A stretch of 64,000 bases of DNA from Nitrososphaera sp. (GTDB taxonomy: Archaea; Thermoproteota; Nitrososphaeria; Nitrososphaerales; Nitrososphaeraceae). Positions 7,372 to 48,745 of this stretch are shown here, piece by piece. Where the stretch lies: assembly GCA_029263715.1 (NCBI GenBank), contig JAJUFP010000005.1, positions 142,494 through 206,493 on the forward strand. Reading direction: 5' to 3'. The position numbers and the translations under genes are program-made. Each line of letters opens with the position of its first letter. Position 1 is the stretch's first letter. The notes beneath the pieces were generated by a model. It was not told the origin of the DNA. It saw only the letters and a program-made list of their open reading frames with translations, and made no database searches.

Positions 7372-7974
7372 TTAAGTTGCGACAATCTTGAACAATGCTT
7401 TTCCAAACTCATCTATGAAATTAACAGCCTCGTCTACCATCTTTTCATCAATAGGCCACCTCTTATTTTGATAAGTAGGATTAGAATCTGCCTCGTGGGT
7501 TATTCTATTACGGCGTTCAACTATCAGTTCCAGTTGCCGCTTTATGTCTTCAGAAGGACGCTCCAGAATAGTGGACATTTCGGTCCATAAATTTTTATTC
7601 GAAATCAATTTAATTGCTTCAGAGATTTTGTCCGGTTTCTGATAGCTTTTGTAACCATTCCGTTTTCTTATTTCATTTCTTAGCCATTCGTTGTTAGAAG
7701 AAATGGCGATTGATTTCACCAAAGAAATGGAAATATCATATTTTAAAAAATGGTTTGTGGGCGGACGGTTTCCAACATAAGCTTCCACCATTCCTTCTTC
7801 CACCAGCTCATGGATGAAATTATCAAGGACACTTACAGACATTACTAGCTCGGATCGAAGTATATCTGTTAGATCTAATGCAGGTGTAGTCATTTTCCGG
7901 AGAGCAGAATATAATGCTCCAAGACTACGAACGTAATTAATATTTTCTTCGAATCTGTTAAGAGCTTTGTGCAT
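7372..7974 (-). CDS. HEPN-like domain protein (candidate RNase/toxin)
   Basis: 200 aa; RRNRITHEAD gives an RNxxxH motif in a predicted all-helical protein. Its start overlaps the end of the ParA gene. Confidence 0.6.
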   Translation of the reverse strand: MHKALNRFEENINYVRSLGALYSALRKMTTPALDLTDILRSELVMSVSVLDNFIHELVEEGMVEAYVGNRPPTNHFLKYDISISLVKSIAISSNNEWLRNEIRKRNGYKSYQKPDKISEAIKLISNKNLWTEMSTILERPSEDIKRQLELIVERRNRITHEADSNPTYQNKRWPIDEKMVDEAVNFIDEFGKALFKIVAT

Positions 7975-9004
7975 GTGTTGTCAGATTGATAATCTTGTCA
8001 GCAAATTCACTAAATATTCTGTCGAATTCCTTTTGAGATTCTAGTGTTTGCTTATAGACAACGCCTTGTTGATTCAATTGTTCTTTAGTTAGTGCATATA
8101 TTGGAGTTTGATTATCTTGAGATATAGCTATTAGACTGTTAAAATCAGGAATGGTGGCTAAGGTAAAATCTTTATCCAATCCAGCGCTCCTATAAGCCGA
8201 ATCCGGAAGTAGCATTTTCTTTTCAGAAAGAGCGGGAATGAGTTTTGTTGTTATTCCATCCTGAATATCTTTTATCCATTTCTGGAAAGCCTGTGCGGGA
8301 TCTTTTCCCCTTGGCCTAAATTTTTGGATAACTGTACCCAGGAATTTTGGGATCCCCTGTGGATATGGATAAGATGCATCCTTCAAGATTGGTAATTGTT
8401 GCGCTTTCACGGACCATTCGCACCAGTCAGGCAAAACACGAGCCAAAGAGTCGATGGCCATCACTGAAAAATAATCAGGATTGGTGGGTACTATGAAATA
8501 ATCACTAGTCATCAAAAGATTTCTGTTGGTTGAGCTTAAACTAGGATTCAAATCTGTTATTATGTAATCTGCCCTGTAGGTTTCAGCGGTCTTGTTCAGT
8601 AAATACGAAAAGGATCCTGGTAGATTTCTTAATGCAACTAGAGAGCTTGATAATTCGTGTGCTATGCCTAATGTCACATCATATTCAGATAACCTAATGT
8701 GACCTGGCAAAAGAAAGAGATTTTCTCTTACAGGTAAACACTCTACAGACTTCATAGGTTCAGGACGAGATTCAAACGCAGGCGCTAGTCCTGATGCGAT
8801 ATCGCGTTGACTAGATTTGTAGAGGTTCTGGAATTCATCATATCCCTTAAAGCCTAACACCATGCCTGTTAGATTGCATTGGGGGTCTGCATCAAGAAGA
8901 ATAACCCTTATTCCCTTTTCAGCAAGCTTCCAACCTACATTGAATGCAGTGGTTGTTTTACTCACACCGCCTTTGTGATTAAAAAGAGCTATTTTCTTTA
9001 CCAA
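7958..9004 (-). CDS. ParA/MinD-like P-loop ATPase
   Basis: KKIALFNHKGGVSKTTTAFNVGWKLAEKGIRVILLDADPQCNLTG (deviant Walker A KGGVSKTT); YIITDLNPS. Confidence 0.92.
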   Translation of the reverse strand: MVKKIALFNHKGGVSKTTTAFNVGWKLAEKGIRVILLDADPQCNLTGMVLGFKGYDEFQNLYKSSQRDIASGLAPAFESRPEPMKSVECLPVRENLFLLPGHIRLSEYDVTLGIAHELSSSLVALRNLPGSFSYLLNKTAETYRADYIITDLNPSLSSTNRNLLMTSDYFIVPTNPDYFSVMAIDSLARVLPDWCEWSVKAQQLPILKDASYPYPQGIPKFLGTVIQKFRPRGKDPAQAFQKWIKDIQDGITTKLIPALSEKKMLLPDSAYRSAGLDKDFTLATIPDFNSLIAISQDNQTPIYALTKEQLNQQGVVYKQTLESQKEFDRIFSEFADKIINLTTHAQSS

Positions 9005-9024
9005 TTTTCACACATACATGAACT

Positions 9025-9040
9025 GGGTTATTCTTAACCC
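9025..9040. promoter_or_regulatory. Inverted repeat upstream of the ParA-HEPN cassette (possible operator)
   Basis: GGGTTA-TTCT-TAACCC, 20 bp upstream of the ParA start; a TATA-like ctatttata lies further upstream near 9069-9077. Confidence 0.4.
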
Positions 9041-9304
9041 TTATTCCGTTATTTTACCGAAAATTATTCTATTTATACCCTTACCAGCCAATTTCTTAGT
9101 GTATTGGTTTCTTTGTATGACAGCGATTATTGATTATTCCAATTTTTTCTCAGATAGAGATGTCGAAAAGTGCCTTATCCTTTAATTCATCATTTCTGCG
9201 AATCAGAATTATACGAGCGGTGATGCGTATTTTTTCAAATTAGCCAAATGTTGAATTGCACTAAATAATATTTCAGATTGCATTTTACATAAATGAATTC
9301 CGTA

Positions 9305-9721
9305 TCAGCGCATCTTTTCCATCCAATCGTCGTCCCGGTAGTTCTCAGGGTTCAGCCTAAAGCCGGATGTCTGCTCTCGCGGAACATCACTTAGCTTCAA
9401 AAAGTATTCCAGCTTTAGTTTTTTCAGCTTTTTGTTGAGCCAGAGCACGAACCGGTCTTCAAGCGTGTTGCCTTCCTGCTTGTTGATATCGGGGTGAATA
9501 TCCAAAAGCTTTTCCACAAAGTCAGGGTTGAAATATAGCCGGAAGAAATCCCAGCCAAGGGACTTACCCATCGACGAGCACTCTACATTGCCTTCGGTAT
9601 GGGCCCCCCATTCCAGAGTGCCGATGAATTCCATTATCTTTGGCCGTTCTTTTTCAAAATCGATACAGGAGCCGGAAACCACTATCATTGGAGCTCTTTC
9701 GGCAAATCTACGGTGCACCAA
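9305..9721 (-). CDS. Hypothetical protein; distant paralog of the 39223-39564 product
   Basis: GWDFFRLYFNPDFVEKLL...GNTLEDRFVLWLNKKLK aligns with GWSFAKLFLSGQFVEKLY...GKKFEDKFIGWLGQQLK. Confidence 0.6.
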   Translation of the reverse strand: MVHRRFAERAPMIVVSGSCIDFEKERPKIMEFIGTLEWGAHTEGNVECSSMGKSLGWDFFRLYFNPDFVEKLLDIHPDINKQEGNTLEDRFVLWLNKKLKKLKLEYFLKLSDVPREQTSGFRLNPENYRDDDWMEKMR

Positions 9722-9764
9722 GTCTAATTATAAGACAAATTATGGATATTTAAGTAAATTGCCA

Positions 9765-11387
9765 CTACAGGTAGCGTCTCAACGTTTCTGTCACACGCTG
9801 AACCCCCAGATCCAGGAAATAGTTTCCGATCCTGGGTCCCCTGTCGGAATTTAGGAACATCCTGTACAGCAGGGTGAACAGCTCCTTTGGATCCATCCCA
9901 TTGTTTCTGGCGGTATCAAACACCTTGGATTGCAGGTTCTTTGCATTTTCCGGGTTTTCAGGTATGTTTTCAAACGCTTTCAGAACCTCGATTAGATCCA
10001 ACACTGCTTTTTTCTGGTTCTCTGAAAGCTGGACCTCGAACCTTTCCTCGGTGGTGGTAAAGTCGTCGGCCCAGTTGGCGGCCAGCCTTATCTTTTGCAT
10101 GATGCTGTCAGTCTTGTCCTTGACCATGCCGTATTTGACGAGACGTGCAAAGACCTTTTCGTATTTGTCCTGACTGTCAGGGTATATGGAGGCCTGCTGC
10201 GCCAGGAACCGGTACAGCGCGTGGGGGCTTGGCTGCTTTGGCGGCTGCAGCTTGTTGATGTATTCGTAAATGCCCTTGATCTTGGTCAGCTTGGCCTGAT
10301 TATCCTCCTTTATCTTGCCAAAGTACAGGTCTTCATAATAGTCGTATTCGTCCATCAGTGCCGGCACGTCGTCTATGCCGACATGTCTGGTGCCGGTGAT
10401 ACGCTTGAAAAGCAAGAGGAGTATCGATTCTGGAGTCCCGTACTTTAGCCACATCTGCGGCGTCAGCACGTTTCCAGCCGACTTGCTGATCTTTTTGCCG
10501 GATTTGTCAAGAAACATCTCGTACTTGACATGCAGCGGATGCGGATGCCCGAGGATCTCGTCGCAGACCCAGTCGTTGACACGGACGGAATCCATGATAT
10601 CCTTGCCGTAGGCCTCAAAGCGGATGTCAAAGGCCTGCCAGCGGGCGGCAAACTCAACCTTCCAGGCAAGCTTGCCATCTCCTTTTGTGATGTCAGCCTC
10701 GCCTTTATGGCCGCAGCCCTGGACCTCGGATTTGCCGATGCGGCTGCCTTTGCAGCTGTAGAGGACTTTCTTTTCTTCCGGCAGGTATTTTTCGGCTACA
10801 GCCACGTACAGCCTGCCGCAGCTGGCGCAGACCGGAAAGTACGGCAGGACGCTGATGTATTTGTCCTGCCCCACAAATTCGGCTATCTTCTTGCCCAGCT
10901 TTTCGCTGTTTTGCAGTATGGTGTCTATTTGCTTGACCAGCTTGCCGGTCTTGTAGGCCTCCCTGCCGCTCTGGAACCGGTATTTTATGCCGGCCCGGTC
11001 AAGGCCGTCTAAAAGAAGGCTGCTCATGTGCGCGCCGTACGACGGCTGCGTTCCAAACGGATCTGGTATCTCTGAGACCGGCCGCGCGATATGACCCTTT
11101 AGCCAGTCTGGAAGGCCGGCGGGAATCTTGCGCAAGCCGTCCATGTCATCGGAATAAGCGACAAGCTCGGATTTGTAACCCATGTTCTGCAGTGCAAGGG
11201 CGATGCCATAAGCCCTGACGGCGTCTCCCATGCTGCCGATGTGGGGTATCCCGGAGGCGCCAAGGCCGCTTTCAACTCGGATGAGGTTCAGACTTCTACC
11301 CAGCCTCTTTTCGCGCCTTATCATGGCGTCGGCAACCTTGTCCAGCCAGGTACCCTTGCCTACAACTATCTGCTCAGATTCTTCCAT
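9765..11387 (-). CDS. lysS: Lysyl-tRNA synthetase, class I
   Basis: LIRVESGLGASGIPHIGSMGD (HIGH-like), KISKSAGNVLTP (KMSKS-like) and GRLYVAVAEKYLPEEKKVLYSC. Confidence 0.93.
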   Translation of the reverse strand: MEESEQIVVGKGTWLDKVADAMIRREKRLGRSLNLIRVESGLGASGIPHIGSMGDAVRAYGIALALQNMGYKSELVAYSDDMDGLRKIPAGLPDWLKGHIARPVSEIPDPFGTQPSYGAHMSSLLLDGLDRAGIKYRFQSGREAYKTGKLVKQIDTILQNSEKLGKKIAEFVGQDKYISVLPYFPVCASCGRLYVAVAEKYLPEEKKVLYSCKGSRIGKSEVQGCGHKGEADITKGDGKLAWKVEFAARWQAFDIRFEAYGKDIMDSVRVNDWVCDEILGHPHPLHVKYEMFLDKSGKKISKSAGNVLTPQMWLKYGTPESILLLLFKRITGTRHVGIDDVPALMDEYDYYEDLYFGKIKEDNQAKLTKIKGIYEYINKLQPPKQPSPHALYRFLAQQASIYPDSQDKYEKVFARLVKYGMVKDKTDSIMQKIRLAANWADDFTTTEERFEVQLSENQKKAVLDLIEVLKAFENIPENPENAKNLQSKVFDTARNNGMDPKELFTLLYRMFLNSDRGPRIGNYFLDLGVQRVTETLRRYL

Positions 11388-11389
11388 TG

Positions 11390-12976
11390 CTATATCTCCT
11401 TTGAAACGTAGGGACCGTCTTGATGGTATCCCAGTTGTTTTTTATAGTATTGCCTTGTGCCGACCGCGCTGATGACTGCGATCTTGTCCACACCAAACTC
11501 TTCCTTGGCTATCCTTTCTGCTTCCTGCATAAGTTTCATTCCATACCCCCTGTGCTGGTACGATGACGCATCGACGTCATGTCCGACGTTGAGTGCCTGC
11601 CCGTAGACATGAAGCTCGCGGACCACGGCCGAGTATTCAAGCTCCGGCCTGTGGGTGGACTGGATCTTCCTTAAGCGCAGAAAGCCAAGGATGGTCTGGC
11701 CGTCAAGGCTTTCAAAAGACAGGAAAGCTTCCCGGCTTGCAGAGGCAGAATAGTCTATCCTTTTGAAGACCACCTCATCTGCTTTTGGGTATTTCTTCTG
11801 CAGGCCGGCTTCGCGGCATCTTATGCAGTTGCACCTGTAGCCCTGCTCCTGCAGTCTCTGAAGCACTATCTGCCTCAAGTTGCCGCTTTTAGGTCCGGCG
11901 ATGATGTCGGCTGACTCGATCTCCCGCTGAACGCGCATTATCCTGATCCAGGGCGGCACCATCTTTTTCATCTCCACTATCACGTTTACAAGATCGTCAT
12001 CGGAATATGCCTGGTACTTGCCGGTCCTGTACAGCTTGTACAGGCCGGTGTGCTCTAAAACAAGGGTTGGATAAACCTTGAGCATGTCTGGCCTGAAGGA
12101 CTCGTCTTCAAAAAGCCGCCGGAAATCCTCGATGTCTTTTTCCGGAGAGGACCCTGGAAGGCCGGGCATCATGTGTGCAACTACCTTGTAGCCAGAATTT
12201 CGGGCAACCCTAAAAGCATCGACGACATCCTGCAGCGTATGTCCCCGGTTTACCAGTCTGTAGACTCGGTCATCCAGAGACTGGACACCTATCTCAAGTC
12301 TTGTAACCCCAAGATCCAGCAGCAGATCGATGTGCTGCTCCTTGCAGTAATCCGGCTTGGTCTCCACCGTAAAGCCAACGCACCGGTTATCAGCAACCTC
12401 GTTTGCCAAGATGGATTGCTGAAGATCTCCTGATGGAAAGCCGTTTAACGCGTCGTAGCAGGATTTTGCAAAACCCCGCTGGTAGTCTGCTGGCATGAAG
12501 GTAAATGTGCCGCCAACAATCACGATCTCGGACTTGCCGGTATCATGGCCGCGCCTTTGCAGCTGGTCGACTTTGGACCGGACCTGCATGTACGGGTCAA
12601 AGTCAAAGCTCTGTGCGGCCCTGGCTGCCGGCTCCTTGCCGGTGTAGCTTAGAGGAGTGTTGAATTCTATGCCTCCGGGGCAGTATATGCATCTTCCATG
12701 TGGGCATTCGTAGGGTTTTGGCATGACTGCAATTACTGCCACACCCGACGCGGTCTTGGCCGGTTTGACCATCAGCAGCTTGCGGTACCTGCTTGTCTGG
12801 GGAAGGTATCCGATGATGTGCTCGTTTTTTGGCATCGTGGCCAGACGGTACTGTGAGGAAACTTGCCGGATGATCTTGGAGACCTGCCTAGCAGACGGGC
12901 TGTGCTGATTTATCTGCAGGGCGATGTCCTTGCAGGCCTGCTGGTAGACACTGTCCGGATCGGAAGCGGCAAGCAA
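11390..12976 (-). CDS. elp3: Elp3-family tRNA U34 carboxymethyltransferase (radical SAM + GNAT)
   Basis: MPKPYECPHGRCIYCPGG radical-SAM cluster, GVTRLEIGVQSLDD, HMMPGLPGS, C-terminal acetyltransferase HRGYGMKLMQEAERIAKEE. Confidence 0.94.
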   Translation of the reverse strand: MLAASDPDSVYQQACKDIALQINQHSPSARQVSKIIRQVSSQYRLATMPKNEHIIGYLPQTSRYRKLLMVKPAKTASGVAVIAVMPKPYECPHGRCIYCPGGIEFNTPLSYTGKEPAARAAQSFDFDPYMQVRSKVDQLQRRGHDTGKSEIVIVGGTFTFMPADYQRGFAKSCYDALNGFPSGDLQQSILANEVADNRCVGFTVETKPDYCKEQHIDLLLDLGVTRLEIGVQSLDDRVYRLVNRGHTLQDVVDAFRVARNSGYKVVAHMMPGLPGSSPEKDIEDFRRLFEDESFRPDMLKVYPTLVLEHTGLYKLYRTGKYQAYSDDDLVNVIVEMKKMVPPWIRIMRVQREIESADIIAGPKSGNLRQIVLQRLQEQGYRCNCIRCREAGLQKKYPKADEVVFKRIDYSASASREAFLSFESLDGQTILGFLRLRKIQSTHRPELEYSAVVRELHVYGQALNVGHDVDASSYQHRGYGMKLMQEAERIAKEEFGVDKIAVISAVGTRQYYKKQLGYHQDGPYVSKEI

Positions 12977-42477: not shown

Positions 42478-42551
42478 GCCCTAGTAGCTCAGCCTGGCAG
42501 AGCGAGGGTTTCGTAAACCCTAGGTCGTGGGTCCGAATCCCACCTAGGGCT
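42478..42551 (+). tRNA. tRNA-Thr (CGT)
   Basis: GCCCTAG/CTAGGGC acceptor, GCTC..GAGC, AGGGT-TTCGTAA-ACCCT, GTGGG-TCCGAAT-CCCAC; 74 nt. Confidence 0.95.
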
Positions 42552-42698
42552 TAATTCTCTCATTTTCGAGTTAGCGAGCCGACTTATTTTCCAACCCTAA
42601 CAATTGGCTGTAAGGTCACCACTTTGTTGTATGTATCCTGCTTTTATTAGTAGAGCAGTTCTAATTTTGTAAGTCTTCAATTTACCACTTATTTCACT

Positions 42699-42716
42699 CG
42701 TGAGTCTTTACTCACG
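42699..42716. repeat. Inverted repeat/hairpin between tRNA-Thr and the DUF4209-like gene
   Basis: CGTGAGT-CTTT-ACTCACG perfect 7-bp arms. Confidence 0.6.
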
Positions 42717-42762
42717 TTCCTTTGAAATCTGATTATTTCCTAACAACAATTCCAAGAATATG

Positions 42763-44466
42763 TTATCTTTTTTCAACAGACATTTTTGTTAAAATAATTA
42801 TTACATAGATTATCGAGATCGACGTGACATGGTTAAACTCTTCAAGTGGAAGAAGCCCATGAGCAACTTCATTCCTTAGATTAATACCCTCAACATCTGT
42901 AAATTTTATTTTTAGGTAACTTGTGAAATCGTTTCCAAGTGTTTTTATGACATCGTTGTTGTCAAGAATGCCGCCCATCTGACTATCCATTATTCTCATT
43001 TCTTTTCCCTCCACCTTTATCGTTGAGATACCACGGGAATTTAGAAGCAATCTTAGTGTATTTTCTACCTGTGGGATTAGAATATGAATCGATGCAACAT
43101 AATCTTGATTGAGATGGCGTTTTATTCCAGATCTCAAGAGCTCCAAAGAATCTTTATCGTGCAGTCCAAAGTCCGAGATGAATTTTGTGAAGTGTTCTTC
43201 GGATATTCTTTTTTGCTCTTCCAACTTTTTGACAGCAGTTGCAAACCAGTGTTCTGCAAGCTTAATCTGCTCGAGAGTTTGTCTTTTTATTTCAGAACGC
43301 AGTCTTGATTCATAATCATTGGTATGAGCAATTGGATTCTTTCTGTTATAATGAGTTGTTGGCCAAATATGTGAAATTGGATTATCTGCCATGATGTCTT
43401 TTGCCTCTTGCTCAATACGGGATTGGTTGGGTACCATCTCACATCTCGAGATTGATCGAACTAGCTCTATGCCGTTCTCCCCATCAAATTCTAGGGGAGG
43501 AAGCTTGATTGTTGTAGATACTGTCTCCCATTGTATTATCTTGGCAGATTCTCTTATTTTCTCTCCAAGTTCCTTGACTTTCTCCGACATCCCAAGTTTC
43601 TGGTAAACTTGTTGGGCTTCTTCATACCATTTGGTTGCGGCCAAGCCGTTATTCTCCTTAAATGCAGTGTTACCATCGGCTTCGTGTGATTCTGCAATCA
43701 CAAGTTGTATCTGTTTTCGCAGTTTCTGTTTTTCATCTGGTAAGAGGTCTGTGAGATTACATAGACCCAAAGACGCCTTTAACAGAGATCGCTGAAGATG
43801 ACTATTTTTATTATCAGAGAATCTTTTGGCTGCCCGATGGACTATGGTAAATAGCCTAGCAATAGTCTCTTTTTCAGATTTATTATTGAGAAGACAAAAC
43901 ACTTCAGTTGGTTCTATCAGCCATCTTTCATATTCAGTGTTTTCCAGATCAAAACATATGTGTAAAGCCGCCTTGCTTATGTCATCGTCATATTTCAAAT
44001 TATAGAGTTTGTTTATGTTAAAAGCGACAACTAAGAGATAAACACAACTCTGTATCTCCTTCTGTTTGAGATGTATATTTGAACACTCAAGAAGATTATT
44101 AATTGCATCAGGGAAATACTGTGGTTTTCTCGTTAAAAGAAAACAGATTAATGCATAACGCCATCTATTTTGATGACTTTTCGTTTCTTGAAGCCTTGAT
44201 GTAAAATAAGCTATTTCTTTATCATTTCGTGTTGGAAAATATTGTTGAACACATCTGTTGATTTCCTCTATTTTGACGCCCTCCGTACGCGGTAGTACCC
44301 AACGCAGAGCAAATACTAGATTGACTACTTTCAACTCCAATTCAATTTTTTCTTTCTTTTCTCCTGCTAACGGCAATAGCTTATTCAAAAGAGTCATCTT
44401 GGAAAAGTTGGGTTCGTCTATTTCGTTCTCATCAAACTCTTTCCAGAGCTTATCAAATTCCTCCAA
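42763..44466 (-). CDS. DUF4209-like protein with HEPN-type RNxxxHG motif
   Basis: 567 aa. C-terminal HLNQDYVASIHILIPQVENTLRLLL...NLRNEVAHGLLPLEEF contains RNEVAHG. Noticeably AT-rich relative to neighbours. Confidence 0.7.
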   Translation of the reverse strand: MEEFDKLWKEFDENEIDEPNFSKMTLLNKLLPLAGEKKEKIELELKVVNLVFALRWVLPRTEGVKIEEINRCVQQYFPTRNDKEIAYFTSRLQETKSHQNRWRYALICFLLTRKPQYFPDAINNLLECSNIHLKQKEIQSCVYLLVVAFNINKLYNLKYDDDISKAALHICFDLENTEYERWLIEPTEVFCLLNNKSEKETIARLFTIVHRAAKRFSDNKNSHLQRSLLKASLGLCNLTDLLPDEKQKLRKQIQLVIAESHEADGNTAFKENNGLAATKWYEEAQQVYQKLGMSEKVKELGEKIRESAKIIQWETVSTTIKLPPLEFDGENGIELVRSISRCEMVPNQSRIEQEAKDIMADNPISHIWPTTHYNRKNPIAHTNDYESRLRSEIKRQTLEQIKLAEHWFATAVKKLEEQKRISEEHFTKFISDFGLHDKDSLELLRSGIKRHLNQDYVASIHILIPQVENTLRLLLNSRGISTIKVEGKEMRIMDSQMGGILDNNDVIKTLGNDFTSYLKIKFTDVEGINLRNEVAHGLLPLEEFNHVTSISIIYVIIILTKMSVEKR

Positions 44467-44591
44467 GCTTGCATGGTATAGCTAATTACACAAGAATTTA
44501 AATTCAGATCTTCGCTTAAAGTGTTCTACTATTTTCCTTCGTATTTACAATGTCTTGTTTATGCTTAAGATGAAAAGGACTGGAGTTAGAG

Positions 44592-44606
44592 TCGTGAGTC
44601 TCACGA
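44592..44606. repeat. Inverted repeat upstream of the DUF4209-like gene
   Basis: TCGTGAG-T-CTCACGA; shares TCGTGAGTCT with the repeat at 42698-42707. Confidence 0.6.
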
Positions 44607-44614
44607 GTTTGAGA

Positions 44615-44992
44615 TTAGCTCAACAGGCCGCTTTTTTTCAGCAACGGGATGATCTTTTGAAGTATGATGGGTTCATGCTCTGATTCAACATCAAAAGACA
44701 CCATGAAAATGAAATTACCGTTTAGCGGGATGACTGCCCTTCTTATTTTTTCGTACAATGCAAAAGCGTAGATGGTTTTTCCCAGGTAGACTTCGAGGGT
44801 TCTTCTTGAGCCCATCCTGAGTATCGATTGCGCTGCAGACAGTTCCGACATTTCCTTCGTCAACAACGGGATCTGGCCTTTTCGGTATTCGCTTGCGACG
44901 ATGCTTCCCAGGTCGTTGACTAGTGCTGCAAACCTGATCGATCCGTCAAGTTCCAGGACTTCTTGGCAGAGTTGCTGGTCTATATCAGACAT
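44615..44992 (-). CDS. Hypothetical protein, possibly roadblock/LC7-like fold
   Basis: LDGSIRFAALVNDLGSIVASEYRKG...FIFMVSFDVESEHEPIILQKIIPLLKK. Confidence 0.55.
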   Translation of the reverse strand: MSDIDQQLCQEVLELDGSIRFAALVNDLGSIVASEYRKGQIPLLTKEMSELSAAQSILRMGSRRTLEVYLGKTIYAFALYEKIRRAVIPLNGNFIFMVSFDVESEHEPIILQKIIPLLKKSGLLS

Positions 44993-45191
44993 TCAGGGCA
45001 TTTGAGAACACACATAATAATATACATTCCAGACGGACAAGAGCCCCCGCCGATTTAGGGTCTCAGAGCAACCGTGTCTTTAGGGTGATTTGCAAGATTT
45101 CGTCGTGGTTCATCTGTAGCTTTGCCTTGCTGGCTTTCATGGCTACCGGCAAGAATTGAAGGGCTTATCTGTCAATTTTTGTGCAGTTGTG

Positions 45192-45440
45192 CTACTTTTT
45201 CTTTCCAAAATTGAAATAGCAAGAGTAGCAGTAATCCTTGCCGTATATCACGCCGGTGTTACCGCAACTTACGCAGTGCTTTTCATGTTCTACCGTTGAA
45301 TCAAGGGACTTGGCCTTTTGCAGGCACCGGCCGCAAATGGGCGCCTCAAGATTGTAGCTTGATAAAAAGCCCTCCCCGCACTGATTGCACCTTAAACTGT
45401 ACATCTTTCCCCTTGGTTTCCAACGTCTAAACATGCTCAT
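45192..45440 (-). CDS. Zinc-ribbon protein
   Basis: CNQCGEGF, CGRC, CVSCGNTGVIYGKDYCYSC motifs in 82 aa. Confidence 0.65.
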   Translation of the reverse strand: MSMFRRWKPRGKMYSLRCNQCGEGFLSSYNLEAPICGRCLQKAKSLDSTVEHEKHCVSCGNTGVIYGKDYCYSCYFNFGKKK

Positions 45441-45593
45441 ATGCTATGTAGATTCCGGCCCTTGCTTCGCAAAACCCGCTTAAAAATGAAATGTAACAAT
45501 GTTCCGTAGTAATCAACTCTAAATTTTTTACTGCAAAGCAGGCAAACTTGCCTTTAGATACAGGATATCCAAGGCCGGGCTTCAAGTATATTT

Positions 45594-46460
45594 TTAGCTG
45601 CAGTAAAGCCGGATCTTTATGCCGTCGTTGTCGTAAAAGAAGGCCGACCTTGCTTCTTGCTCATATGGTTGCTTGATGTTGTTCTGCAAGAGGTGTTCTA
45701 CCGTCCTGTCAAGCTCTTCTCTATCGGGTAGTTCTATGCCAAAATGGTTCAATCCTGCTTGATTGGGCGAAGCTGGAGGTATGTTTATTCCAAGCCATGT
45801 ATTGGTTGCAATGTGGTGATGATACCTGCCAGCGGCAAAGAAATACGCCCCCGGATACGTGGCCGTGTGGTTCAGCCCCAGAGTCTCGGAGTAAAACTTG
45901 CTTGCTTTTTCGATGTTGCTAACATGGAGGTGAACATGGCCTATAACCGTCTTGGCAGGCATTTCTTTCCAACCGGAAGCCCCCTTGAGCAAGTCTTCTG
46001 TGTTTAGCCTTTCTGTTGCCATTCTGACATGGTTGCCGTCCCAGTGCCATTCCGAGCTTGGCCTGTCCCGATAGATCTCGATGCCATTAAAGTCCGGATC
46101 CCGTATGTAGATGGACTCTGACACAAGATGGTCGGCCAGACCATCAAGGTATACCCGGTCACGGTTTTCCCTTAAATGCAAAAGCATGTCTGCCAGAAAC
46201 CTTCTTTCCGGAAGCAGAATTGCAAAGTGGTACAGCCCTGCTCTTTTTTGGAAACCCGGTTCGCTGGACTTTACCTGCAGCAATTCTAAAAGGCCGGAAG
46301 ATCCGTCTGCTGAAAGAAGCGCCTTCTCGCTAGACGGCCTGCCAATTATCCGAAACCCCAGAACAGTCTGGTAAAATTCCAAGGACCGCGAAATATCAGG
46401 TACATTTAGGCTGACGTACCCTATCTTGGTCGATGGATGGATCTTGAACTGCGTTTTCAC
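45594..46460 (-). CDS. VOC-family protein (glyoxalase / catechol 2,3-dioxygenase-like)
   Basis: IGYVSLNVPDISRSLEFYQTVLGF and IGHVHLHVSNIEKASKFYSETLGLNHT (two VOC modules). Confidence 0.9.
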   Translation of the reverse strand: MKTQFKIHPSTKIGYVSLNVPDISRSLEFYQTVLGFRIIGRPSSEKALLSADGSSGLLELLQVKSSEPGFQKRAGLYHFAILLPERRFLADMLLHLRENRDRVYLDGLADHLVSESIYIRDPDFNGIEIYRDRPSSEWHWDGNHVRMATERLNTEDLLKGASGWKEMPAKTVIGHVHLHVSNIEKASKFYSETLGLNHTATYPGAYFFAAGRYHHHIATNTWLGINIPPASPNQAGLNHFGIELPDREELDRTVEHLLQNNIKQPYEQEARSAFFYDNDGIKIRLYCS

Positions 46461-47032
46461 TTTCTGAACCTGCCTTCCATTACAATTTCGTGTAGCGGCT
46501 TTCTGTTGCTTGGGAATTCCCTTTCCTGAAGCTGTGCAGGAAGCTTTTCCTTTGGCGCTCTTTTGCCAATGGCTATCATTGCCATGACATTGTAGGTGTC
46601 CGGCACGTCCAGTTCTTTTCTTGCCTTCTCGTAATCAAATCCTTGCATTGCGTGGGCGACCAGCCCCCTTGAAGTGGCTTCTAAAGCAAGATTTTCCCAT
46701 GCTGCCCCGGCATCGAATTGATGAGTTATAGAAGGCTTGTTGTTGTACTCAAAATTCTTGTGCGAGACTACAACCACCAGTGCAGCGGCGTCTTTGGTCC
46801 AGCTCTTGTTAAAGTCAGTCATCAGGTTGAAAAGCCTGTCCCAGTGCTCTGTACCTCTTGTTGCGTAAATGAACCGCCAAGGTTGGTTGTTAAAGGAAGA
46901 TGGGGCCCACCTTGCAGCCTCAAAGAGGCTCATCAATTCATCGTTGGTTAGTTCCTCCCCGGTCATGGCCCTTGGAGACCACCTATTCAAAATGATACTG
47001 TTTATTTCAAATGCAGGTGTTCTTCCTGTCAT
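46457..47032 (-). CDS. Nitroreductase-family protein
   Basis: RWSPRAMTGEELTNDELMSLFEAARWAPSSFNNQPWRFIYATR; GLVAHAMQGFDYEKARKEL. Confidence 0.9.
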   Translation of the reverse strand: MTGRTPAFEINSIILNRWSPRAMTGEELTNDELMSLFEAARWAPSSFNNQPWRFIYATRGTEHWDRLFNLMTDFNKSWTKDAAALVVVVSHKNFEYNNKPSITHQFDAGAAWENLALEATSRGLVAHAMQGFDYEKARKELDVPDTYNVMAMIAIGKRAPKEKLPAQLQEREFPSNRKPLHEIVMEGRFRK

Positions 47033-47304
47033 TTTGACACCCGTTGCTCATTGTCCTTCATATGCAATACTATTCTTGTTAAGGTTAATAAAGATGGTAG
47101 TAATTTCTGACTATGTCAGTAAAGAGTACCTTGCCAAGTAAGTCATGCCTTACTGTAGACGGCAAGGTCTGGCCAAACAACATGCACCAAATGTATTCAA
47201 AGTTAGGGAAAACACCTTTTGATTTTTTGCTGCAACAAGATTGCAATACAAGACAGTGTATTCCTCCAAACTAAATACGAAAAACGAGTAAAGCACTCAA
47301 GGGA

Positions 47305-47694
47305 ATGTCCAAAGCGATTTACTACGCAGCAGCTGGGACGGGCGGATTGGCTGGTATACTGCACCTTTTGATCGCACCCAACGTGATAGGCTTTAACCTA
47401 AATGCAGCAATTTTCTTCATCGTGGCTGGAATTGCTCAGTTGTTCTGGGTCATCCCGATGATCCGGCGCTGGGGAAAACCATGGTACTACGCCGGGATAG
47501 CAGGAACGGTCGTGCTCATCGCCCTTTGGGCGGCAACTAGGATGCCCAACCCAATTACAGAAAGGGCCCTGCCCATTGATGCCATGGGAATATCTGTAGA
47601 GCTGTTACAGGCGGCGTTCATCGGGCTAACTGGCGTGATACTTGCCGAAAGAAGGCCAAAAACTGACAGGATAAAGACAGCCGGTCTTGCCTAA
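47305..47694 (+). CDS. Hypothetical integral membrane protein
   Basis: About four hydrophobic segments in 129 aa. Confidence 0.6.
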   Translation: MSKAIYYAAAGTGGLAGILHLLIAPNVIGFNLNAAIFFIVAGIAQLFWVIPMIRRWGKPWYYAGIAGTVVLIALWAATRMPNPITERALPIDAMGISVELLQAAFIGLTGVILAERRPKTDRIKTAGLA

Positions 47695-48035
47695 CCTACT
47701 TTTTTGTCGATGTATTCTTTTAGAGCTACGGCATTGTTGAACCTTTCATCCTTTGCACCGTAAAGCAGGTACACAGTTTCAGCGCGTTCTTTTTGGAGGA
47801 TCCTGTCTACCAGTTCATGCTTTTTGTCCAGTTCTTCCCAGTACCGCAGTTTGAATTCATCCCATTTTTCTGCTTCGTGTTTAAACCAGTTCCGCAGTTC
47901 GGCACTTGGAGCTATATCCTTTAACCACAGGTCCACCTTGTCTTTGCCTATTCCCCGCGGCCAAAGCCTGTCAACCAATACCTTGAAGCCGCTGTCATTG
48001 GCTTGCAGATTGTATATCCTCTTGACAACAATCAT
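47691..48035 (-). CDS. DUF488-family protein
   Basis: VDRLWPRGIGKDKVDLWLKDIAPSAELRNWF...VYLLYGAKDERFNNAVALKEYI. Confidence 0.88.
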   Translation of the reverse strand: MIVVKRIYNLQANDSGFKVLVDRLWPRGIGKDKVDLWLKDIAPSAELRNWFKHEAEKWDEFKLRYWEELDKKHELVDRILQKERAETVYLLYGAKDERFNNAVALKEYIDKKVG

Positions 48036-48265
48036 GACTCCACATTTTCAATTTGCAACTGCTGGCTATTTAGAACCACTGATGCTACTTATGGCCATGA
48101 AATCGATGGTTCAAGAGATACTTTCTAATCTGCTAATAATGCAGGATCACTTCTGCAATTACTACTATCAATATGCAAAGGACATGAAAGCTGTCTGAAA
48201 ATAAAAAAAGTGGGGTGGTATATCCCCCGATCGCCAAGCCTTCCTCTTTCGGACCGATGTAATTG

Positions 48266-48541
48266 TCACTCTTGTAATCCGTTTGAGTTCTTTCTTTGGT
48301 TCAGAGCCATTTTTTCACCAATTTTGTTCAGCAGAACTATGGCAATTCCAGCCAGCAGATGGGCTACAAAAGCGCTAACCATGGCGTTGTCAAGATACAT
48401 GCCTACTACGATTCCTATTCCTATGGTCGATAGAACAGCAGCGAAGTAAATGAAACCAAAACCGCCGTTTGTTGCAGAAGGCTTTTGTGTTGATGGAGGT
48501 ATGTCCTGCCCCTTGGGCATCGCAGGGTGATCCTCTATCAC
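48266..48541 (-). CDS. Hypothetical small membrane protein
   Basis: Two predicted TM segments (FIYFAAVLSTIGIGIVVGMYL; AFVAHLLAGIAIVLLNKIG). Confidence 0.5.
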   Translation of the reverse strand: MIEDHPAMPKGQDIPPSTQKPSATNGGFGFIYFAAVLSTIGIGIVVGMYLDNAMVSAFVAHLLAGIAIVLLNKIGEKMALNQRKNSNGLQE

Positions 48542-48745
48542 ATATATAATATGGGGAAGTTTTATTTAAGCAATCTTGTCCGTCGTTTTTCGTTCTATAT
48601 CTTGCCGATTTCCTAGTTAATAGCAGTCTTCATGCTTGGGATGCGGCCGAAAGCTAGACGGAATAATGTATGGCGAAGCTGTTTTGCATTCTGTTAATCA
48701 AATTCCCCGGCAAAAGATAAAGCCCCATTAGGTATTGACCATGCC

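Follow-up and report, generated by a model that had tools for sequence, protein, structure and literature searches.

A DUF4209/PDC-S39 gene beside tRNA-Thr in Nitrososphaera: a candidate stand-alone HEPN ribonuclease from a family associated with tRNA 3' ends

The 64,000-nucleotide stretch of DNA analysed here (the window), from the soil ammonia-oxidising archaeon Nitrososphaera sp., carries on its minus strand a gene for a 567-amino acid DUF4209/PDC-S39 family protein (42763-44466), located next to a tRNA-Thr gene. The reading that we favour, with a probability of about 0.6, is that this gene encodes a horizontally acquired, stand-alone HEPN ribonuclease that would be triggered by infection and that integrated at the tRNA-Thr.

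Results

A distant DUF4209/PDC-S39 protein with an intact HEPN motif

The open reading frame starts with a TTG codon (44466-44464), and its limits had been given exactly, without a strand, in the initial annotation of the window; it lies on the minus strand, the plus-strand reading of 42763-44466 containing 27 stops. The protein matches one Pfam family, PF13910 (E=2.6e-12, residues 467-557), over positions 1-87 of the 89 of the profile, with a score of 47.1 bits for a curated cut-off of 22.3. The DUF4209 membership initially proposed from an RNxxxHG motif, which was to be given up if a PF13910 search returned no DUF4209 or HEPN match, is borne out by this result, and the motif, present as RNEVAHG, stands above chance as judged by the same score. 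An identity as an ElaD/SseL deubiquitinase was rejected (15.4 bits for a cut-off of 250). The protein also matches the PADLOC profile PDC-S39 (E=1.5e-34, residues 77-550, profile positions 83-568 of 595). It has the length class and the domain layout in common with this candidate system (PDLC05011/PDLC05012), which PADLOC reported in P. aeruginosa PAO1 (PMC11878078); however, it is a distant member: in the aligned columns, none of the full-length relatives used in the trees is more than 23% identical to it. Its first 76 residues are not matched by the profile, and its host is a Nitrososphaera-type archaeon.

We aligned the window protein with 81 relatives of 540 to 720 amino acids (82 rows). 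Its C-terminal part reads ...NLRNEVAHGLLPLEEF... and includes the predicted RNase catalytic motif RNEVAHG (42856-42876, minus strand), that is R531-x4-H536, in which R531 and G537 are conserved in 100% of the rows, H536 in 99%, and N532 in 96%. A second HEPN signature, E468-x3-R472 (ENTLR; 43051-43065, minus strand), is conserved in 100% of the rows for the glutamate and 96% for the arginine, and the neighbouring columns P465 (98%), Q466 (96%), and G527 and N529 (99% each) are similarly constrained. The HEPN RNase signature suspected at annotation is thus represented by Rx4H and Ex3R motifs that are near-invariant across the alignment. The protein has an Rx4-6H motif with a polar residue after the arginine, together with Ex3[KR], which are the sequence features of the HEPN superfamily; a survey of this superfamily lists Rx4-6H and Ex3[KR] as signatures and places DUF4209 (C6orf70 family) among the predicted catalytic HEPN families (PMC3710099). 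The RNxxxHG motif and the HEPN-type domain are common to the window protein and to the DUF4209 (PF13910)/C6orf70 family, but its N-terminus is prokaryotic, soluble, and TPR-like, whereas the eukaryotic C6orf70 branch has a transmembrane segment (PMC3710099). No transmembrane segment was seen in the window protein when its sequence was judged by eye, and neither the transmembrane ER localization nor the vertical conservation of C6orf70/ERMARD-type proteins was found, its presence being sporadic.

A predicted helical solenoid followed by a probable HEPN-type domain

An AlphaFold2 run that combined the window protein and 57 of its relatives produced a whole-chain model with a mean pLDDT of 89.3 (64-78 around residues 131-200) and a pTM of 0.81. 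The model consists of an all-helical, TPR-like alpha-solenoid (residues about 2-308; 43543-44463, minus strand), which is the putative sensor or regulatory part, a linker that includes a small beta element, and a C-terminal domain. Searches of the PDB for solved structures and folds with the whole chain returned TPR and helical-repeat proteins, and since Foldseek gave only helical-repeat proteins at this step, the C-terminal domain (residues 384-567; 42763-43317, minus strand) was folded separately, with a pLDDT of 94.6 and a pTM of 0.89. Its Foldseek matches in the PDB include RnlA, AF0298, SSO P95883, TT1696, Csm6, and AbiV and are almost all HEPN proteins. The structure prediction advised in the initial annotation therefore gave a two-sided answer: HEPN structures dominate the C-terminal matches, occupying most of the top 13 ranks with TM-scores up to 0.66 by target, but the E-values are weak, the best being 0.47, so that the fold assignment leans on the consistency of the matches and on the motif.

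The window protein may be likened to RnlA/LsoA, AbiV, ApeA, and Csm6, which are single-protein or partnered defence HEPN RNases with an Rx4-6H motif, and RnlA, AbiV, and Csm6 are among the structural matches of the C-terminal domain. RnlA works with an antitoxin, RnlB, and Csm6 is a sensor of cyclic oligoadenylate, whereas the window protein has no visible partner or signal domain.

An AT-rich gene in a variable interval downstream of tRNA-Thr

The AT-richness remarked on at annotation is clear from the composition of the gene (GC 0.371 and GC3 0.340, versus medians of 0.532 and 0.634 for the window ORFs). Among the 49 window ORFs of at least 150 amino acids, the three lowest GC3 values are those of the DUF4209 gene and of a ParA/HEPN gene pair (7372-9004, minus strand). 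This pair is the other AT-rich unit of the window (GC 0.37-0.39) and is made of a RiboL-PSP-type HEPN gene (7372-7974, E=1.7e-12), the second HEPN-type protein that the annotation had placed in a separate AT-rich patch, and of a ParA/CbiA-type ATPase gene with which it overlaps by 17 bp; its HEPN part gave no PADLOC match.

The adjoining tRNA was confirmed as tRNA-Thr(CGT) (42478-42551, plus strand; ARAGORN; Rfam tRNA, 64.5 bits), and it points with its 3' end towards the end of the DUF4209 gene, 211 bp away. The tRNA-Thr and a phosphomutase (PGM/PMM) gene are kept side by side across the genus, and tblastn synteny defined a lineage-specific interval between the tRNA-Thr and a conserved CitMHS-type transporter gene (42552-48745). 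This interval measures 6.2 kb in the window versus about 3.4, 9.8, 11, 1.9, and 1.9 kb in the five relatives for which both flanks are visible, and none of its genes was found by tblastn at the tRNA-Thr site of seven relatives. ORFs of 545-551 amino acids beside the tRNA-Thr of two relatives, close in length to the window protein, were considered as orthologues and rejected, as they are thermosome subunits. The occupancy of the site therefore differs among relatives in both content and length, and the gene is absent in 68 of the 69 other genomes of the taxonomic family, which speaks against vertical conservation at this locus. These data, together with the low GC3 and with a presence in 2 of 398 genomes of the phylum, support a recent acquisition by the window lineage, in agreement with the horizontal acquisition first suggested.

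The immediate neighbours of the DUF4209 gene encode a small protein that has numerous paralogues, a zinc-ribbon-like protein, a glyoxalase, and a nitroreductase, and no defence gene was found among them. The small protein (125 amino acids, 44615-44992) has no Pfam match and is roadblock-like by eye; its own genome has 14 copies and other genomes as many as 23, with a 90% identical copy in an unrelated setting in another genome (G029). It was rejected as an antitoxin in view of these 14 copies and of its paralogues throughout the genus.

Integrated elements of thaumarchaea often use tRNA genes (39 of the 68 mapped), nearly all at the 3' end (PMC6563490). The geometry is the same in the window, but neither an integrase nor a tRNA-Thr 3'-end repeat of at least 10 bp was found in the interval 42552-48745, so that the two features of a tRNA-integrated element, integrase and direct 3'-end repeat, are lacking in the window copy. 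In another member of the genus (L050), positions 11308-11401, 7.3 kb downstream of the tRNA, hold two degenerate copies of the tRNA-Thr(CGT) 3' end, one of 38 bp (92%) and the other inverted. The tRNA-Thr has thus probably been used for integration elsewhere in the genus.

A sporadic family found in both domains

DUF4209 is present in 2 of the 70 genomes of the window's own taxonomic family, the other copy, in G062 (L054, 380-1347), being decayed: it is fragmented and contains stops and a frameshift. PDC-S39 matches were found in 2 of 398 genomes of the phylum. PF13910 exceeds its cut-off in 10 of 394 genomes of the phylum of Methanoculleus and in 6 of 399 and 5 of 395 genomes of two further phyla, a share of about 1-3%, each count taking in the centre genome. 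The relatives, 80 of them retained from 239 candidates, come from many bacterial phyla and were found via an alignment of plasmid homologues; a scan of the genome contigs with the single protein gave none. Homologues occur on plasmids, including the haloarchaeal pJ7-1, on predicted viral contigs, and in PHROG families. The initial annotation took the family, as originally described, to lack archaeal members, and this is contradicted by the haloarchaeal plasmid, by two Methanoculleus genomes, and by the 10 positive genomes of that phylum: archaeal members exist, sporadically.

In the trees, the window protein sits on a long, poorly resolved branch. Parsimony requires a minimum of four changes of label for the archaeal sequences, several of them inside bacterial groups. 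These long-branched trees do not show the donor domain or the direction of transfer. Three Enterococcus species (L076, L077, and L078) have identical or almost identical DUF4209 proteins, which suggests recent transfer.

DUF4209 genes are associated with tRNA 3' ends and integrases

To measure the association with tRNA genes, we compared the flanks of DUF4209 genes at 97 non-duplicate loci, the window being left out, with those of control ORFs from the same loci lying more than 2.5 kb from the DUF4209 gene; duplicates were collapsed (L197 and L096 are the same site, L190 and L191 are twins). A tRNA 3' end facing the gene within 500 bp was found at 9 of 97 loci (L083, L104, L107, L123, L140, L149, L188, L190, and L198) versus 6 of 312 control ORFs (odds ratio 5.2, Fisher p=0.002), and a tRNA in either orientation at 9 of 97 versus 10 of 312 (p=0.018). 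When the distance was extended to 800 bp, where L169 also counts with its tRNA at 710 bp, the facing configuration was observed at 10 of 97 loci versus 6 of 278 control ORFs (p=0.002). A raw per-base enrichment (p=1e-4) was set aside because it takes no account of the intergenic location of tRNAs; the comparison of gene flanks is fairer for this reason, and the effect is smaller. Among the 149 immediate neighbour ORFs of the relatives, 10 belong to the phage-integrase family, 3 are type I R-M specificity subunits, 2 TIR, and 1 caspase (raw counts, with no genome-wide baseline), and DNA methylase and type II restriction genes are present singly or in few copies. On one plasmid (L055, 2439-7537), the DUF4209 gene stands between a preceding gene, HNH-like by eye, and a caspase-like/PDC-S65 gene that comes immediately after it.

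Of all the full-length relatives found, the closest (28% over 401 amino acids, E=2e-38) is encoded by L169 of G598, an archaeon of the phylum of Methanoculleus. It belongs to a 3.5-kb element (7725-11221) made of a tRNA-Val, a 110-amino acid ORF, the DUF4209 gene (GC 0.30), an archaeal phage integrase gene (PF16795, E=1.8e-39), and a copy of the tRNA-Val 3' end (11173-11221; 49 columns, 98% identical) lying inside the integrase ORF. This locus therefore has both the integrase and the direct 3'-end repeat of a tRNA-integrated element. In Bradyrhizobium sp. cir1 (L107, 6531-8995), the DUF4209 gene stands alone between a tRNA-Leu and two successive copies of its 3' end (83% and 96%), and no integrase was seen between them. 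The tRNA-linked integration context put forward at annotation is consistent with the 97-locus test and with these two relatives bracketed by tRNA-end repeats.

Discussion

In the mechanism that we propose, the C-terminal HEPN domain would act as a metal-independent RNase through the R531/H536 pair, presumably as a dimer, and the N-terminal TPR-like solenoid would keep it inactive and sense infection or an invading element. Once activated, the enzyme would cut RNA and stop the cell or the invader, with dormancy or death as the outcome, as in abortive infection, and a separate antitoxin would not be needed. The gene may have arrived on a small element integrating at the tRNA-Thr 3' end, the integrase and the att repeat of the window copy having been later lost or never kept; we infer this entry route from the elements of the relatives. 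The solitary, single-gene defence candidate envisaged in the initial annotation agrees with the PDC-S39 match and with the mobile and defence neighbours of the relatives, its antiviral activity being a prediction. PADLOC's PDCs are described as mostly unvalidated (PMC12988326), and no published test of PDC-S39 anti-phage activity was found in the literature searched.

Other functions can be considered for such a protein. The HEPN RNase could be a toxin-like addiction or superinfection-exclusion factor that maintains its own mobile element or protects it against rivals. Such a role would fit the small tRNA-bound elements of L169 and L107, which carry the gene alone or almost alone, and the homologues on plasmids, on predicted viral contigs, and in PHROG families, but no conserved antitoxin partner was found beside DUF4209 genes and the window gene persists without the rest of any element, which makes this role unlikely. 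Lower still is the probability of a housekeeping RNase for RNA processing or stress, comparable to the C6orf70/ERMARD branch of the family in eukaryotes. C6orf70 belongs to the same family and was predicted to act in RNA degradation at the ER membrane (PMC3710099); against this stand the patchy distribution of the gene, in the phylum of the window as in the three other phyla, the mobile and defence neighbours of its relatives, and the lack of a transmembrane segment visible by eye.

It is also improbable that the window gene is a non-functional remnant, either catalytically dead and limited to RNA binding or unexpressed. Although the long branch of the protein and the decay of the related G062 copy could point in this direction, the frame runs over 567 codons without stops, all the near-invariant catalytic columns are intact, and the fold model is confident. 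The infection-triggered, acquired HEPN RNase remains our preferred interpretation.

The DUF4209/PDC-S39 family is already a known kind of candidate, of which the window copy is a further member; what is added here is the family-wide association with tRNA ends and the compact element around the closest relative. The prevalence of defence systems is generally lower in Thermoproteota (PMC12988326) and the defence of ammonia-oxidising archaea is poorly described, and the gene offers a single-gene candidate with defined catalytic residues. We tentatively raise the possibility, itself rather doubtful, that very small elements integrating at tRNA 3' ends regularly carry a DUF4209/PDC-S39 gene as their only cargo in both domains, and that the Nitrososphaera copy was left stranded from an element of this type; if true, the family would be a mobile immunity unit of one or two genes. 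The results also suggest a simple genomic rule, in which the gene is faced by the 3' end of a tRNA and in some cases accompanied by an att repeat, and which may explain the spread of this candidate family across domains.
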